From an uncultured Bacteroidota bacterium (GTDB taxonomy: Bacteria > Bacteroidota > Bacteroidia > Flavobacteriales_D > Crocinitomicaceae): a stretch of 53,528 nucleotides of DNA. Made by a program: the position numbers and the translations under genes. Below, piece after piece: positions 42,031-48,924 of the stretch (position 1 is its first letter; each line of letters begins with the position of its first letter). Where the stretch lies: assembly GCA_937899625.1 (NCBI GenBank), contig CALCCB010000054.1, positions 1 through 53,528 of the forward strand. Reading direction: 5' to 3'. Below the pieces are notes generated by a model that was not told the DNA's origin, searched no databases, and saw only the letters and a list, made by a program, of their open reading frames with translations.

Positions 42031-43665
42031 TTACATCATTCCTGGCATACCTCCTGGCATACCTCCGCCCATTGCTGCACCTGGTTCCTCAGGTTGATCA
42101 ACAATAACACATTCAGTTGTCAATAGCATAGAAGCGATAGACGCAGCATTTTCAACCGCAATTCTAGTCACTTTAGTTGGGTCAATAACCCCCGCTTTGT
42201 ACAACTTCTCATATACTTCAGTTCGTGCATTGTACCCAAAGTCGTCTTTACCTTCTTTCACTTTCTGGACGATGATCGCACCTTCTCCTCCGGCATTTGC
42301 TATGATCTGACGAAGTGGCTCCTCAGCTGCGCGTTTAACGATCTGAATTCCTGTAAGTTCATCATCATTCTCACCTTTCAATTTGTCAAGCGATTCAATT
42401 GCTCTGATCAATGCAACACCTCCACCAGGAACAATTCCTTCTTCCACAGCAGCTCTCGTTGCCGCTAGAGCATCATCAACTCTATCTTTCTTTTCTTTCA
42501 TTTCAACCTCAGTAGGTGCTCCAACATAAAGCACAGCAACACCACCTGCAAGTTTGGCAAGACGCTCCTGAAGCTTTTCACGATCGTAATCAGATGTTGT
42601 AGCCTCGATTTGAGTTTTTATCTGAGCAACTCTCGCTTGAATATCTGCCTTTTTACCGGCTCCATTGATGATCGTTGTATTGTCTTTGTCAATTTCGATC
42701 TTCTCAGCGGTACCGAGCATATCAAGCGTTGTGTTTTCAAGAGTCATTCCTCTCTCTTCAGAGATCACTTGTCCACCGGTTAAAATAGCGATGTCTTCAA
42801 GCATAGCTTTTCTTCTGTCTCCAAATCCTGGAGCCTTCACAGCAGCCACTTTCAAAGAACCTCTTAGTCTGTTAACCACAAGTGTTGCTAAAGCTTCTCC
42901 ATCAACATCTTCAGCGATGATCAATAGACTTCTTCCGTTCTGAACAACTGGCTCAAGAACGGGTAGAAGTTCCTTCATATTTGAGATCTTCTTTTCACAG
43001 ATCAAAATGAATGGCTTTTCCATTTCAGCGATCATTTTGTCTGTATTTGTAACAAAATAAGGGGATAGATATCCTCTGTCGAACTGCATTCCTTCCACTG
43101 TTTTTACTTCAGTTTCAGTGCCTTTCGCTTCTTCCACAGTGATTACACCATCGTTTCCAACTACCTTCATCGCTTCTGCGATCAATGTACCGATCGTTTC
43201 GTCATTGTTCGCAGAGATCGTAGCGATCTGTTTGATCTTATTATTGTCAGAACCTACTTCTTTCGAAAGCTTCTTCAAGTTTTTAACTACTTCAGAAACC
43301 GCCTTATCGATTCCTCTTTTCAGGTCCATCGGATTCGCTCCAGAAGCAACATTCTTCAAACCTGCGCTGATAATGGCTTGTGCCAGTACAGTCGCAGTTG
43401 TTGTCCCATCACCTGCAATATCTGCGGTTTTAGCAGCGACTTCCTTCACCATTTGAGCACCCATGTTCTCAACCGGATCAGATAATTCAACCTCCTTCGC
43501 AACTGTAACACCATCTTTGGTTACATGAGGGGCGCCGAATTTTTTACTGATTACAACATTACGACCTTTAGGCCCTAAAGTAACCTTTACTGCATTCGCC
43601 AATGCATCAACTCCTTTTTTTAATTTGTCTCTTCCTTCAATGTCGAAATAAAGATCTTTTGCCAT
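42031..43665 (-). CDS. groL: Chaperonin GroEL
   Basis: This 544-residue 60-kDa chaperonin is full length. It has [17 protein letters not shown] and the nucleotide-binding [12 protein letters not shown]. The apical domain carries [13 protein letters not shown], followed by [22 protein letters not shown] and the flexible GGM-rich tail ([12 protein letters not shown]). It folds client proteins in an ATP-driven double ring closed by GroES. It follows groS by 22 bases and shares its promoter region, which contains a sigma-54-type site. Confidence 0.98.
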
Positions 43666-43687: not shown

Positions 43688-43963
43688 TTAAAAAATTCCG
43701 TAAATATCAGACTCTCGCATGATCAGATAAGTGTTTCCGTCAAGCTTGATCTCTGTTCCCGAATACTGACCGTAAAGTACTGCATCACCAACTTTTACCG
43801 TCATGGGCTCGTCTTTTTTCCCGGCTCCAGCAGCCACTACCTTACCTTGAAGGGGCTTTTCCTTTGCTGTGTCCGGAATGATTATACCACTAGCTGTTTT
43901 TTGTTCTGCCGGCGCAGGTTCGATCAGAACTCTGTCTGCCAAAGGTTTAAACTTTACTGACAT
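43688..43963 (-). CDS. groS: Co-chaperonin GroES
   Basis: This 91-residue protein has the 10-kDa chaperonin pattern: [33 protein letters not shown] (mobile loop within TASGIIIPD), then [30 protein letters not shown]. It caps GroEL. It is first in the groES-groEL operon. The upstream region has no CIRCE element and no TAnnTTTG box, but has a TGGCAC/TAGCA site with GG-N10-GC spacing. Confidence 0.97.
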
Positions 43964-43997: not shown

Positions 43998-44014
43998 TTG
44001 CTAAATCTGTGCCA
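43998..44014 (-). promoter_or_regulatory. Candidate sigma-54 (-24/-12) promoter of groES-groEL
   Basis: Minus strand reads TGGCAC (44009-44014), AGATT, TAGCAA (43998-44003). The invariant GG and GC are exactly ten bases apart, and only one base differs from TGGCAC-N5-TTGCA. Transcription would start about 12 bases past the GC, near 43989, leaving a leader of about 26 bases to the groES ATG at 43963. No vegetative -7 box is found in the gap. Motif reading only. Confidence 0.5.
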
Positions 44015-44047
44015 CTCGATTTTTTAGGACAATTTTTCGTTTTAGAG

Positions 44048-44083
44048 AAAAAAAAATGTCAGTATGTGTGACATACTGACATT
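44048..44083 (-). terminator. 13-bp perfect inverted repeat: secG terminator and possible enhancer site for groES
   Basis: AATGTCAGTATGT (44055-44067), loop GTG, ACATACTGACATT (44071-44083). On the minus strand the stem runs into a T-run (from the A-run at 44048-44056), right for a terminator of the miaB-secG operon. It also lies about 80 bases upstream of the predicted sigma-54 start of groES, where an activator would bind. Stem perfection and length are greater than needed for termination. Confidence 0.6.
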
Positions 44084-44104: not shown

Positions 44105-44428
44105 TTATCTGCTTTGGTTTTGCTGGCCTCCCTGACCTTTCTGTCCACCTTGCTGACCTCCTTGTTGTTCAGTTCCCTGGATCTCTTCTTGTTGAGTAAG
44201 ATCCGGTGTCTTAGAACGGATCGTTAAGATAATACTCAAAACCATGATCACTCCGGCTAACGTCCATGTAGCCTTGTCAATGAAGTCATTTGTTTTTTGA
44301 ACTCCTCCAAGCTGCTGAGCCGCACCAAAATCTGAACTTAGTCCACCACCCTTCGGATTCTGGATAAACACAACGATGATAAGCAATACTGCAGCTATAA
44401 TAATGATACTTGAAAACAGGATATCCAT
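44105..44428 (-). CDS. secG: Preprotein translocase subunit SecG
   Basis: This 107-residue protein has two membrane helices (about 3-22 and 53-72) with the conserved [19 protein letters not shown] loop between them and a polar C-terminal tail. SecG assists SecYEG-mediated export. The tail is a low-complexity Gln/Gly run ([18 protein letters not shown]), longer than usual and probably disordered. It is the last gene of the miaB operon and is followed by the 13-bp inverted repeat. Confidence 0.92.
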
Positions 44429-44431
44429 TGT

Positions 44432-45484
44432 TTACGTATTAAGTTTTTTCTTTAATTCTTTAATTTGGGTTGCAAAGAAAGTCTTTTTTTCTGGATTTGT
44501 CAATATTAATTGCTCATAAGCTGAAATTGCTTTCGGATAATTTCCCTGAGCGGCAAAAATCTTCGCTAAAGTTTCGCTTACAGGCATAGCGGTGGGGTCG
44601 ATACTTTCTTTTGCTTTTTGAGCTGGAGAATAAAATTCCTTTTTAGGTCGATCGATCTGTATTGTGCTTTTTGTTGGTCTCGAGATCGACGGTTCTTCAC
44701 TGATGAATTTATCGAGAATTGCTTCTATCCTTGCCTTTTCAGGGTCAATTGATAAATGAATTTCGTTTTCATTCGATCTTAACCATCCGGTAAAAGTTCT
44801 CGCTGAATCATCTTCATTGGAAGTTGAAATATCTTCAAATTCTTCCGCAATAGTTGATGGTTCTATTGTCTCCTTATCAGACTCCATTAATAAACTGTCA
44901 GAAGACCCGTCTAGTATTTCTTCCGGTATGCTTTTCTCTTTAGATGCATCATCAAAAGATTCATCTTCGACAAGATCGTTGAGATGGTCCATATCGTAGT
45001 TCTGGTTGATCGCCTCCGCTAAAAGTTCCTTATCGAAACTGGTATTTGTTTCAGCTACCTCGGTTTCTGAATGAACTTCTGTCTCATCAATGACAGGGGT
45101 TAACGGAATGTTCTCTTCAATTTTGGGTTCTTCAATAACAGGAGGTACCGGATGTTCGATCTCTTCTACAATTTTTTCCAGAATGACCTCTATATTTTGA
45201 TCTTCAGGTTCCTTGGTGGCAATTATCTCCGCAGGTTGTTTACTATCCGCTTTGTGGATCAGATTGAATAGTTGATTTCTATCAGTGATCCTAAAGGCAT
45301 GTTTTTGAAGCTCTTCTTCAAATTTTACATGGCCATTTGCTGCCATTGTTCGAAGATATAATATTGAGAAGATCTGAGTATAAGGGTAATCTTGAGTCAA
45401 TGACTGCAGCTCACTTAGTTCACTCAAGGAACAAAGTGACGGATTTTCAATACGATCTGCTATATCTTTTGTGCTCAATATCAC
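44432..45484 (-). CDS. Acidic protein with C-terminal TPR-like repeat
   Basis: This 350-residue protein has no signal peptide. The N-terminal helical part (about 1-85) contains LQSLTQDYPYTQIFSILYLRTMAANGH. A long Glu/Asp/Ser-rich central region (about 90-270) is likely disordered. The C-terminal TPR-like motif reads VSETLAKIFAAQGNYPKAISAYEQLILTNPEKK. Such proteins are conserved between lptE and secG in Bacteroidota, but no function is known to me. It overlaps lptE by 4 bases and lies 3 bases before secG. A scaffold role in envelope assembly is a guess from context only. Confidence 0.7.
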   Translation of the reverse strand: MILSTKDIADRIENPSLCSLSELSELQSLTQDYPYTQIFSILYLRTMAANGHVKFEEELQKHAFRITDRNQLFNLIHKADSKQPAEIIATKEPEDQNIEVILEKIVEEIEHPVPPVIEEPKIEENIPLTPVIDETEVHSETEVAETNTSFDKELLAEAINQNYDMDHLNDLVEDESFDDASKEKSIPEEILDGSSDSLLMESDKETIEPSTIAEEFEDISTSNEDDSARTFTGWLRSNENEIHLSIDPEKARIEAILDKFISEEPSISRPTKSTIQIDRPKKEFYSPAQKAKESIDPTAMPVSETLAKIFAAQGNYPKAISAYEQLILTNPEKKTFFATQIKELKKKLNT

Positions 45485-45990
45485 CAGTTCGAATTTAACT
45501 TATTTATTACATCCTGAACGATCTGTCTACTAATCTCTTCCAATAATTGATTTTCTACCGAAGCAAGATCTGTATTCGAGTCATAATCGATGAAACGCGT
45601 ACTTGTAAGGTTCATTTGGTCTTCTTCGGGCGCACTAACCTCTATGGTAAATTGCGCTGATATAGTTAATCTGTTTTTCGATGCGTTATCTCCTTCTTGA
45701 ACTGCGACGGGTATAACTGTGTAACTTTTGATCGTGCCTTCGATAACAATTTCTCCTTTACCGGTCTCAGGGTTGAGCAACAATTTAGTATTTGTCTGAA
45801 CGCCGTCTTTTAAGCTTTCAGAAAGCACACTTGCATAATTTAGCGGAGCATTTGCCGCATCACTGTTTAGGTTAATAACAGAAAATGTTTTCCATTCTTC
45901 AGGCATTCCACCCTTATCAATAAATGATACGCTTGTCGGCCAACAAGAAGTAAGGATAAGAATAACGAGAAAAGGTAAGATCACTTTCAT
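45481..45990 (-). CDS. lptE: LptE family lipoprotein (LPS assembly)
   Basis: This 169-residue protein has a lipoprotein signal peptide ([16 protein letters not shown], lipobox ILTSC with Cys16). The mature part has an LptE-type alpha/beta pattern: FSVINLNSDAANAP and NTKLLLNPETGKGEIVIEGTIKSYTVIPV. In Bacteroidota LptE-like lipoproteins plug the LptD barrel that delivers lipopolysaccharide to the outer leaflet. It starts at the stop of the sigma-54 activator gene (TAATG, 1-base overlap). Confidence 0.85.
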   Translation of the reverse strand: MKVILPFLVILILTSCWPTSVSFIDKGGMPEEWKTFSVINLNSDAANAPLNYASVLSESLKDGVQTNTKLLLNPETGKGEIVIEGTIKSYTVIPVAVQEGDNASKNRLTISAQFTIEVSAPEEDQMNLTSTRFIDYDSNTDLASVENQLLEEISRQIVQDVINKLNSNW

Positions 45991-47237
45991 TAATCGGTCA
46001 GGTTATATTCCTTGATTTTTCTGTATAACGTGCGCTCTGAAATACCAAGTTCTGCTGCTGCATATTTTCTCTTTCCCTTGTGTTTTTCAAGTGCCTTTTT
46101 GATCAGCTCCTTTTCACGATCTTCCAGAGATAACGATTCTTCAACCTCTTCATGAGACTCATAAAAATGATCCTCAGTTTCTTCAGGATAATTGATGGAA
46201 GGGCCTTCATTACTTGCTGGTGGCAGAATGCGTGAAGGAGTAATTTCTGGTCCCACTTCCTGATATAGTCTGCTCATTACGGCAGATTGATCGGCATCCA
46301 GAGAAATGTTACCGCCTTGCTTAACTATTTCAACGACAAGTTTCTTTAATTCGGTCAAGTCTTTTTTCATATCGAAAAGGAACTTGTACATGAGCTCTCT
46401 TTCTGAGAAATTCTCGGCTGATTTTTCCGATCCAAGAATAGCAGGCACTTTTTCAGTCTCTGCCGGAAGATATTCTGCAAGCGTTGGACCGTCAATGTCT
46501 CTCTGGGTCTCAATTACCGAGATCTGTTCGACCACGTTTTTCAATTGACGAATATTTCCTGGCCATGAATATGAATTTAGGACATGCACTGCATGGTCAT
46601 CCAGTTTTACTGCCGGCATTCTGTATTTGTCGGCAAAATCATTGGCAAATTTTCTGAACAGCAAATGAATATCCTCCTGACGGCCCCTCAATGGTGTTAA
46701 GGAGATCGGAACTGTATTCAATCGGTAGAAAAGATCATCTCTGAATTTTCCTGTGGCAATTGCCTTCTGCATGTTCTCATTGGTGGCTGCAACCACTCGA
46801 ACATTTGTTTTAAAAACTTTTGAGGATCCAACTCTCATGAATTCTCCCGTTTCCAATACTCTCAGTAATCTAACCTGAGTTTGCATTGGTAATTCTGCAA
46901 CTTCATCAAGAAATATGGTGCCTCCATCGGCGACTTCAAAATATCCTTGTCTGCTTCCATGCGCACCGGTAAAAGACCCTTTTTCGTGACCGAACAACTC
47001 TGAGTCGATCGTTCCTTCAGGAATGGCTCCGCAGTTTACAGCAATATATTCTCCATGCTTTCTAGAACTTAGATGATGGATAACTTGAGGTATGATTTCT
47101 TTTCCGGTTCCACTTTCTCCGGTCACCAAAACAGAGATATCTGTAGGTGCCACCTGCATTGCTACTTCAAGCGCACGATTGAGTCCTGGAGAGTTTCCAA
47201 TGATGCCAAAACGTTGTTTTACTTGCTGTAAATTCAT
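45990..47237 (-). CDS. Sigma-54-dependent transcriptional activator (AAA+ / Fis HTH, no N-terminal sensor domain)
   Basis: This 415-residue protein starts almost directly with the AAA+ domain: Walker A GESGTGKE at 40-47, the sigma-54 contact loop GSFTGA at 87-92 (GAFTGA variant), and Walker [13 protein letters not shown]. It ends with a Fis-type helix-turn-helix ([21 protein letters not shown]). No receiver, GAF or PAS domain precedes the ATPase, so control must come from a partner protein, the linker (about 245-370) or expression level, as in PspF. It binds enhancer-like palindromes and remodels sigma-54 polymerase. It lies between miaB and lptE, overlapping both. Confidence 0.92.
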
Positions 47238-48694
47238 GATACAGTAGATGGTGCTGATTCACATTTTTCAACAACTTCACCCAAGAGGGTCGCTGATGTA
47301 CAATCCGTGATTTTAACCATGACGTATTGCCCTTTTTCCAGATCTTTCCTATCGAATACGACCATAGAGTTTCGACCATTTCTTCCGCATAGTTGATCTT
47401 CCGATCTTTTTGAGGGGCCTTCGATCAAAACCTTTTGAATTTTGCCTATCTGTTGTTGATTTGATTCCAGTGAATGTTTCATCTGAAGGTCGATGATCTC
47501 TGTTAATCTTCGCCCTTTAACATCCTCAGGCACGTCATCTTCAAATCTTCTTTCAGCCAGTGTTTTTGGACGTTCTGAGTATTTGAACATGTATGCAAAA
47601 TCATACTTTACCATCTCCATTAAGCTAATGGTTTCCTTGTGTTCCTCTTCAGTTTCTCCGCAAAAACCGGTGATAACATCTGTAGATATTGCACAGTCTG
47701 GAACAATTCTTTTGATCGCTTCAATTCGCTGCAAGTACCATTCTCTGGAATATCCTCTGTTCATGCGATATAGAACTTCAGTATTACCCGATTGAACAGG
47801 TAGGTGAATGTATGGGCAGATATTTTCATATTTGGCCATGATTTCCAGCACATCATCCGTCATGTCTTTTGGATGAGAGGTGGAAAAACGCACTCTCAGA
47901 TCAGGTGAAACAAGCGCAACCATTTCCATCAACTGAGCGAAGTTAGTAGTCGGCAAATTCTCATCCTTGATCTCTCCTTTACTGGTCAGATTCCATCGAT
48001 AACTATCAACATTTTGCCCCAGTAAAGTAACTTCTCTATAACCTAGATTGTAGAGTTCTTTACATTCCTGAACGATCGTGTAAGGATCTCTCGATCTTTC
48101 TCTACCTCTGGTAAAAGGTACCACACAAAATGAACACATGTTATCACATCCTCGCATGATAGTTACAAAAGCAGTAATACCACCTTGATCCAGTCGAACA
48201 GGGGAGATATCTGCATAAGTTTCATCTCTCGATAGAAGTACATTTACGGCCTTCTGACCGGTTCCAACTTCTTCCACAAGATTAGGTAGGTCTCTATAGG
48301 CATCAGGTCCTGCAACAAGATCAACCAATTTCTCTTCTTCTAGGAGACTTTTTTTCAATCTTTCCGCCATGCATCCAAGGATACCTACGACCAATTCAGG
48401 ATTATCTTCTTTTTTCTTTTTGAATTCAGTCAGTCTGTTTCGAACTCTGGTTTCAGCATTGTCTCGTATAGAACAAGTATTGATCAAAACGATATCCGCC
48501 TCTTCAATATCGCGTGTTGTCGAGTAGCCATTTTCATTCATGATTGACGCAACCACCTCACTATCAGAGAAATTCATCTGACATCCATAACTCTCCAGGT
48601 AAAGTTTCTTTCCAGTGCCATTATTCTCTCGCTCCATGACTACCGCCTCTCCTTGTCTGCTTTCGTCGATCACTTTATTTGGTCCCGTTTCCAT
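47234..48694 (-). CDS. miaB: tRNA-2-methylthio-N6-dimethylallyladenosine synthase MiaB
   Basis: This protein has 486 residues from the ATG at 48694; the upstream TTG at 48724 overlaps the promoter. The methylthiotransferase domain has [24 protein letters not shown] and GCMAERLK (auxiliary cluster cysteines). The radical SAM domain has [22 protein letters not shown], and a TRAM domain is at the C terminus. It adds a 2-methylthio group to i6A37 of tRNAs reading UNN codons. It is first in the leftward miaB / activator / lptE / TPR / secG operon. Confidence 0.95.
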
Positions 48695-48721: not shown

Positions 48722-48753
48722 CAAAATTAACCAAAAAAGCAGAAAGGTGTCAA
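48722..48753 (-). promoter_or_regulatory. Promoter of the miaB operon
   Basis: Minus-strand TTG (48751-48753) in the context TTGACAC, 21-base spacer, TAATTTTG (48722-48729). The leader to the ATG at 48694 is about 25 bases. An AAAATGTCAGT 11-mer (48752-48762, plus strand), identical to part of the groES-upstream inverted repeat, overlaps the -33 element. The rest of the 230-base gap to topA is AT-rich with one more TGTCA at 48857 and no clear topA promoter. Confidence 0.55.
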
Positions 48754-48924
48754 AATGTCAGTGTTAATTTTCGCCAAAGATTTTGAAGCAGAAAAAAACT
48801 ATTGAAATTTTTAAAAATTCTTTAACCTATGGTTAAAAGATATAATAATATAGAAATGTCACTTTGAAGGGTAAACAAGTTTCATGAATTAGCGTTTATT
48901 TTGCGGCTCATAATTGCTGATCAA

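Follow-up and report, generated by a model that had tools for sequence, protein, structure and literature searches.

Comparison of related genomes reveals a predicted sigma-54 promoter upstream of groES-groEL together with an enhancer in helical phase with it, an operator of the same kind as this enhancer at the operon of a sigma-54 activator, and mutual exclusion of the sigma-54 site with HrcA/CIRCE. In all probability these are parts of one circuit, in which the activator encoded in the window (the whole 53,528-nt stretch of DNA analysed here) acts at the phased enhancer, regulates its own operon and stands, together with sigma-54, in place of HrcA/CIRCE. In the proposed mechanism, RNA polymerase with sigma-54 would transcribe groES-groEL from the –24/–12 promoter at 44014–43999, and an activator dimer at TGTCAGTATGTCA (44069–44081), aided by proximal half-sites, would contact it by looping, enhancer and promoter being separated by an integral number of helical turns. 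The dimer would most likely be formed by the enhancer-binding protein encoded 2–3 kb upstream (45990–47237), which would also bind a 13-bp element of this kind, overlying the –33 region in front of miaB, and thereby limit its own synthesis. The same sigma-54/activator system would run dnaK and grpE-dnaJ and replace HrcA/CIRCE, which the class lacks, and in the window the enhancer would be folded into the secG terminator stem.

The window belongs to a 2.93-Mb draft genome (171 contigs) of a freshwater, flavobacterium-like bacterium, whose closest named relatives are metagenome-assembled Crocinitomicaceae; the labels of kinship (order, class) used for relatives are those of the search tool. The genes of the locus are as follows.

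42031..43665, minus strand: groEL (Cpn60), PF00118 E=1.2e-77
43688..43963, minus strand: groES (Cpn10), PF00166 E=1.5e-32
44105..44428, minus strand: secG, PF03840 E=1e-18
45481..45990, minus strand: lptE, PF04390 E=4.6e-12
45990..47237, minus strand: sigma-54 enhancer-binding activator, proposed for groES-groEL, PF00158 E=1.5e-67, HTH_8 E=8.4e-15
47234..48694, minus strand: miaB, first gene of the miaB-activator-lptE run, PF00919/PF04055

The start of miaB was set at the ATG at 48694, not at the TTG at 48724. The activator gene, described in an earlier note as lying 2 kb upstream of groES on the same strand, is found exactly there, 2.0 kb away by its 3' end and 3.3 kb by its 5' end; its neighbours in the Pfam search are miaB, lptE, an ORF without a Pfam match, and secG.

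Sigma-54 promoter of groES-groEL

43999..44014, minus strand: predicted sigma-54 (–24/–12) promoter of groES-groEL, TGGCAC-AGATT-TAGCA, based on the motif and on conservation in relatives

The sigma-54 site reported earlier in front of groES has the exact GG-N10-GC spacing ascribed to it and one mismatch to TGGCACN5TTGCW. Transcription is predicted to start at about 43988, so that the leader ahead of the groES ATG (43963) would measure 25 nt. On the window alone the promoter is within chance, and it rises beyond chance because it is conserved among relatives: the window contains 20 matches to the sigma-54 consensus with at most two mismatches vs 20.0 expected, and genome-wide search for TGGCACN5TTGCW with one mismatch allowed gives 64 matches vs 42 control matches.

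Among 149 relatives searched, groES was present in 142, and the promoter comparison set comprised 143 groES upstream regions, representing 58 genera within the order of the source. The pattern TGG[CT]A[CT]N7G occurs 20–150 bases upstream of groES in 135 of these 143 loci (shuffle mean 2.1, maximum 5) and in 56 of the 58 genera. Conservation of GG-N10-GC in close relatives, the lack of which the earlier note had named among its refuting conditions, is thus observed as far as G(–13), with C(–12) variable. Across the 56 site-bearing genera T-G-G, A and G(–13) are invariant, C is present in 55, and the 10-base spacing is exact; as these letters, with the exception of the C, are mostly set by the search pattern, it is the count against shuffles that constitutes the test, and not the invariance of letters. 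The position of C(–12), left free by the pattern, is occupied by C in 13 genera, A in 34, T in 7 and G in 2, and therefore the –12 element differs from the consensus of proteobacteria. The TAnnTTTG box is not enriched upstream of groES (10 of 143 loci; shuffles, 16), and the secG-groES gap of the window contains none, as had been stated before. The rpoN gene is present in the source genome (PF04552, E=2.1e-53) and in 295 of 297 genomes of the phylum.

It is scarcely credible that the conserved TGGCA element serves some other sigma factor as its promoter or is a protein-binding site instead: such a reading would account for the –12 element being unlike the textbook TTGC in most genera, but not for the GG-N10-G spacing, exact in nearly all of them, the near-universal rpoN, the enhancer in helical phase with the promoter, the background level of TAnnTTTG boxes, and the TSS-based sigma-54 motif at the syntenic locus of F. 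psychrophilum, as given in the relevant passages of PMC9723704. A non-sigma-54 element had also been suspected from the T[CG]G-N form seen in relatives, and this candidate was set aside in view of the constant GG-N10-G spacing.

Some loci deviate from the common pattern. In two loci of family f15 (L245, L410) the groES upstream region has TGGCAT followed by TTTAC, with A for G(–13) and GTACC directly after, which possibly reflects a change of promoter type. Genome G261 has TGGCAT without the standard –12 G, and its sole match among enhancer-binding proteins is of the window type. Separately, some genomes of family f10 carry a second groES (L144, L158, L160), and these copies are without the 13-bp enhancer, L160 also without the promoter.

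Upstream element, helical phasing and the secG terminator

44069..44081, minus strand: predicted enhancer (upstream activator site) TGTCAGTATGTCA, based on conservation and phasing; distance to the –24 box 67 bp
44028..44031, minus strand: proximal half-site, TGTC, 17 bp upstream of the –24 box
44055..44083, minus strand: inverted repeat with 13/13-bp arms, a 3-nt loop and a T-run after it, the predicted secG intrinsic terminator, overlapping the enhancer

The source genome has a single exact copy of TGTCAGNNTGTCA, namely the groES enhancer. The TGTCA palindrome whose presence in relatives the earlier note had proposed to check is recovered as TGTCA-N3-TGTCA upstream of groES in 105 of 143 relatives (shuffles, 0.02), with TGTCA repeats at other spacings found in 0–2 of 143 loci. 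Its distances to the –24 box fall into narrow intervals of 56–57, 66–70, 76–79 and 86–89 bp, and the two outliers, one each at 35 and 108 bp, are both in phase. For 45 values, one per genus, the Rayleigh statistic peaks at 10–10.75 bp, with R=0.84 at 10.5 and p about 1e-14, the latter indicative only, since the genera count as only partly independent; in 20,000 uniform draws the observed phasing was never attained. The distances correspond to whole helical turns, as expected for an enhancer. Moreover, proximal TG[TAC]C half-sites in relatives form clusters at 14–17, 25–28 and 35–37 bp, sharing the phase of the distal site.

The perfect 13-bp inverted repeat noticed earlier (arms 44055–44067 and 44071–44083) folds with –17.2 kcal/mol (z=–6.2 vs shuffles), and the 14-pair stem 44084–44054 with the T-run behind it corresponds to an intrinsic terminator; the suggestion that the repeat doubles as the secG terminator agrees well with these values. 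In the window one and the same sequence is both the predicted secG terminator stem and the predicted enhancer. Among relatives, 83 of 115 enhancer copies reside in a T-tailed hairpin, and in the other 32, not scored so, the phasing is unchanged; since the criterion is strict, with L026, L089 and L102 visibly keeping hairpins with T-runs, the number 32 is an upper limit for hairpin-less enhancers. A terminator role is clearly missing from the elements of five loci: in L024 and L025 the terminator is separate and precedes an intact TGTCA-N3-TGTCA, and in L139, L140 and L135 the direct repeat is present without the matching arm. Of 20 groES copies not situated behind secG, 19 have the promoter and 14 have TGNCA-N3-TGNCA.

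Were the inverted repeat the secG terminator only, with the groES sigma-54 promoter having no specific enhancer there, the strong stem with its T-run and the terminator-like hairpins of 83 of 115 scored copies would be explained. We consider this very unlikely, as the phase to the downstream promoter is strict, whereas terminators need none, the element is intact behind the separate terminators of L024 and L025, it is kept at groES copies away from secG, and a similar one is found at the miaB promoter. The palindrome as a mere terminator was set aside after the phasing and groES relocation tests. The comparison supports TGTCA-N3-TGTCA, not the hairpin as such, as the likely functional core, over which the hairpin would be laid as a terminator; it likewise supports the upstream element behaving as an enhancer, phased to the promoter and kept where groES has left secG.

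The activator, its own operon and other chaperone genes

The window activator consists of an AAA+ domain with the GSFTGA loop (GxFTGA is kept in 87 orthologues) and a C-terminal Fis-type helix-turn-helix (PF02954, HTH_8, E=8.4e-15) with a conserved 13-residue stretch. The Pfam search found in it neither a PF00072 receiver domain, which sets it apart from NtrC-type response regulators, nor a recognised sensory domain, and no pspA-type partner was identified among the neighbouring genes (Pfam). An orthologue is present in all 74 class genomes (E<=8e-126, the best match elsewhere having 1.2e-113), and the class orthologues are full length among the matches listed, save one alignment covering residues 2–310.

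Between the AAA+ lid and the helix-turn-helix, the linker sequence varies among the 87 orthologues, save for conserved Yk.LFdm..d...lK at residues about 285–300 (window 46338–46385), possibly a contact site for a regulator. As for database records, a complete chromosome with a 75%-identical activator (L349, CP034120.1) is titled Glaciecola amylolytica, a gammaproteobacterial name, and is probably misnamed, and titles of some metagenome-assembled genomes, such as Kuenenia (L322) and Actinomyces (L354), look wrong.

48748..48760, minus strand: predicted operator TGACA-TTT-TGACA, TGACATTTTGACA, a 13-bp element of the groES enhancer type that overlies –33 of the miaB-activator promoter
48722..48729, minus strand: predicted –7 box (sigma-A) TAATTTTG for the miaB-activator operon, fitting TAnnTTTG and located 31 nt past the start of the operator

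Of 86 relatives, 78 have TGNCA-N3-TGNCA at the miaB-activator-lptE promoter (shuffles, 0.3), compared with 0–3 for the repeat at different spacings or in mirrored form. A TAnnTTTG box follows the operator in 77 of the 78 and lies 28–33 nt further in 74 of these 77. In the wider class the operator is present at the miaB-activator promoter in 17 of 19 genomes, the remaining two being one base off, and of 30 activator loci inspected, 29 have a miaB match on the upstream side. The miaB and dnaK elements of the window genome are variants of the groES element, not identical copies. An element common to a target and to the regulator's own promoter is a usual sign of autoregulation, and therefore the element common to the groES and activator operon promoters points to autoregulation by the encoded activator. 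The position of the operator over the –33 region suggests repression, so that the activator may autorepress its miaB-activator-lptE operon. In F. psychrophilum, according to the passages of PMC9723704 on this locus, the activator-lptE pair has its own mapped start with a sigma-A-like motif (SM5), and thus the pair may have a promoter besides that of miaB.

The window-encoded enhancer-binding protein is very probably the activator of groES-groEL. The claim of the earlier note that the nearby activator drives the chaperonin operon finds support in the phasing and in the presence of the same element on the activator's operon, from which binding may be surmised. On the other side of the balance, the activator gene is usually near groES simply as a result of conserved gene order.

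The source genome encodes two further convincing PF00158 proteins. One of them (contig C157, L031) combines a receiver with an AAA+ domain, has GAFTSA, not GAFTGA, and no helix-turn-helix, and is encoded about 11 kb from dnaK on the same contig; it may lack the usual capacity for activating sigma-54. In the other (C125), a receiver is accompanied by a weak, non-Fis helix-turn-helix match, the Fis-type HTH_8 match being confined to the window activator among the three. Given these two proteins, and as binding by the window activator is deduced from comparison, TGNCA-N3-TGNCA might be bound by the C125 receiver-type activator or by some unrelated global regulator with the miaB operon, too, under its control, the promoter and enhancer being real; F. 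psychrophilum, too, has three such activators, none of them assigned by its authors in the passages concerned (PMC9723704). We regard this alternative as unlikely, though deserving attention: 78 of 86 relatives and 17 of 19 wider-class genomes have the element at the operon of the window activator itself, the C157 protein has no helix-turn-helix and that of C125 is weak and non-Fis, and the orthologue of the window activator is class-wide.

With the window activator as the preferred regulator, other chaperone genes are its candidate targets. Of the 64 genome-wide TGGCACN5TTGCW matches, 30 were examined for regulon members, and groES alone was convincing, most of the matches lying inside genes; chaperone genes were therefore examined directly. 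In the source genome dnaK has TGGCACAGTGATTGAC (a TGGCA...G site) with a cluster of TGTCA/TGACA sites, and grpE-dnaJ has TGGCAGTATCTTTGTC (also a TGGCA...G site) with TGACA repeats. The dnaK upstream site is present in 29 of 30 relatives, the thirtieth being one base off (CGGCAC), and TGTCA-type sites lie near 89, 77, 36 and 27 bp in this set. The dnaK evidence is weaker than that for groES, since these 30 relatives are mostly of one genus and closely related in sequence.

Replacement of HrcA/CIRCE and comparison with known systems

No HrcA (PF01628) was found in the 74 class genomes sampled, the source genome included, and 174 of 223 genomes from other classes of the phylum have it. Upstream of the window groES there is no CIRCE (TTAGCACTC-N9-GAGTGCTAA), as had been noted previously, the best match having 9 mismatches of 18; in the order set there is none either, the best matches having at least 5 mismatches of 18. 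Among 79 groES upstream regions, with HrcA status assigned by family, 45 from HrcA-less families have the sigma-54 site without CIRCE, 30 from HrcA-bearing families have CIRCE without the site, four have neither, and none has both. Three HrcA-less genomes (two of family f31, one of f15) lack the standard sigma-54 site. In families f34 and f23, HrcA-less and outside the class, TGGTAYRG...TTGC or TGGCACR...TTG sites occur at groES; as a side observation, the TGGTAYRG-N-TTGC of f34 (L265–L270) is closer to the textbook sigma-54 consensus. The replacement of HrcA/CIRCE, proposed before from a single locus, is borne out by HrcA being found in 0 of 74 class genomes and by CIRCE and the sigma-54 site never occurring together, and these patterns support the sigma-54 circuit standing in place of HrcA/CIRCE in the class.

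The signal may be heat or envelope stress, as the earlier note had suggested, or, as we would expect, protein-folding stress. Alternatively, the circuit could operate as described and yet not respond to stress, a constitutive activator setting a steady chaperone level by autorepression; the lack of a receiver or other recognised sensory domain and the probable self-limitation of the activator agree with this. Such a possibility, about a one-in-four prospect in our estimate and thus improbable rather than negligible, is opposed by F. psychrophilum, where sigma-54 promoters including those of chaperone genes vary with blood agar, osmotic pressure and plasma (according to passages of PMC9723704), and by the conserved linker segment, which could bind a regulator.

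A stress-responsive circuit may be taken further: one orphan enhancer-binding protein with sigma-54 could be the class-wide master chaperone regulator, replacing HrcA/CIRCE, autorepressed via the same 13-bp operator and probably controlled by chaperone availability via the conserved linker. We propose this tentatively, putting its chances slightly below even. If it is true, sigma-54 and the activator would be essential in these bacteria, as groES/EL are essential (for Porphyromonas gingivalis, see PMC3547785), and this could explain why rpoN is kept by reduced flavobacterial endosymbionts. The rpoN gene is retained in some insect endosymbionts (PMC3971599), and sigma-54 control of chaperones would offer a reason for that, as well as a concrete reason for the near-universal rpoN in the phylum. 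Control of chaperones without HrcA in this large and common class has been largely open so far; the promoter, phased enhancer, probable activator and autoregulatory site can each be tested directly in cultured Flavobacterium, and the locus illustrates how an enhancer may be incorporated in the stem of a terminator.

Several known systems are comparable. HrcA is a repressor that acts on the CIRCE inverted repeat at housekeeping promoters and controls the groESL and dnaK operons in many bacteria; the circuit described here would have the same targets, but HrcA and CIRCE themselves are absent. PspF of enterobacteria is an orphan receiver-less enhancer-binding protein that activates the sigma-54 stress operon psp and binds near its own promoter. 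The window activator is likewise orphan and receiver-less, with the same element near its own promoter; it differs in having no PspA neighbour, in its predicted cytosolic chaperone targets and in the location of its gene in a miaB-lptE operon. In Myxococcus, an NtrC-family activator, HsfA, has reportedly been described for a heat-shock gene; it differs in being of the response-regulator type and in its target.

The closest counterpart is F. psychrophilum, where passages of PMC9723704 report mapped starts with a sigma-54 motif (SM4) at groES-groEL, dnaK, grpE-dnaJ, lon, htpG and clpB. The sigma-54 motif at groES-groEL and other chaperone starts is shared with the present system, as is the position of the activator-lptE start about 3.3 kb from the groES start; these passages differ in assigning no enhancer, phasing, autoregulatory operator or cognate activator and in making no comparison with HrcA/CIRCE. 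A matrix-based survey of sigma-54 regulons predicted enrichment at the GroES, GroEL, GrpE, DnaJ and DnaK families in Bacteroidota, with reference, as regards GroES and GrpE, to a Blattabacterium genome paper of 2009 (PMC12316311); as far as its relevant passages go, this is a promoter-level prediction, without an enhancer, an activator or HrcA exclusion. Hence sigma-54 dependence of groESL is not new, as it has been mapped in F. psychrophilum (PMC9723704) and predicted in the survey (PMC12316311). In the passages retrieved by text searches of the open-access literature, neither the enhancer and its phasing nor the autoregulatory operator, the activator assignment or the HrcA exclusion was found to be reported. 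Compared with these systems, the predicted enhancer and its phasing, the likely cognate activator and its autoregulation, the overlap with the terminator, and the apparent class-wide exclusion of HrcA are what the present analysis adds.
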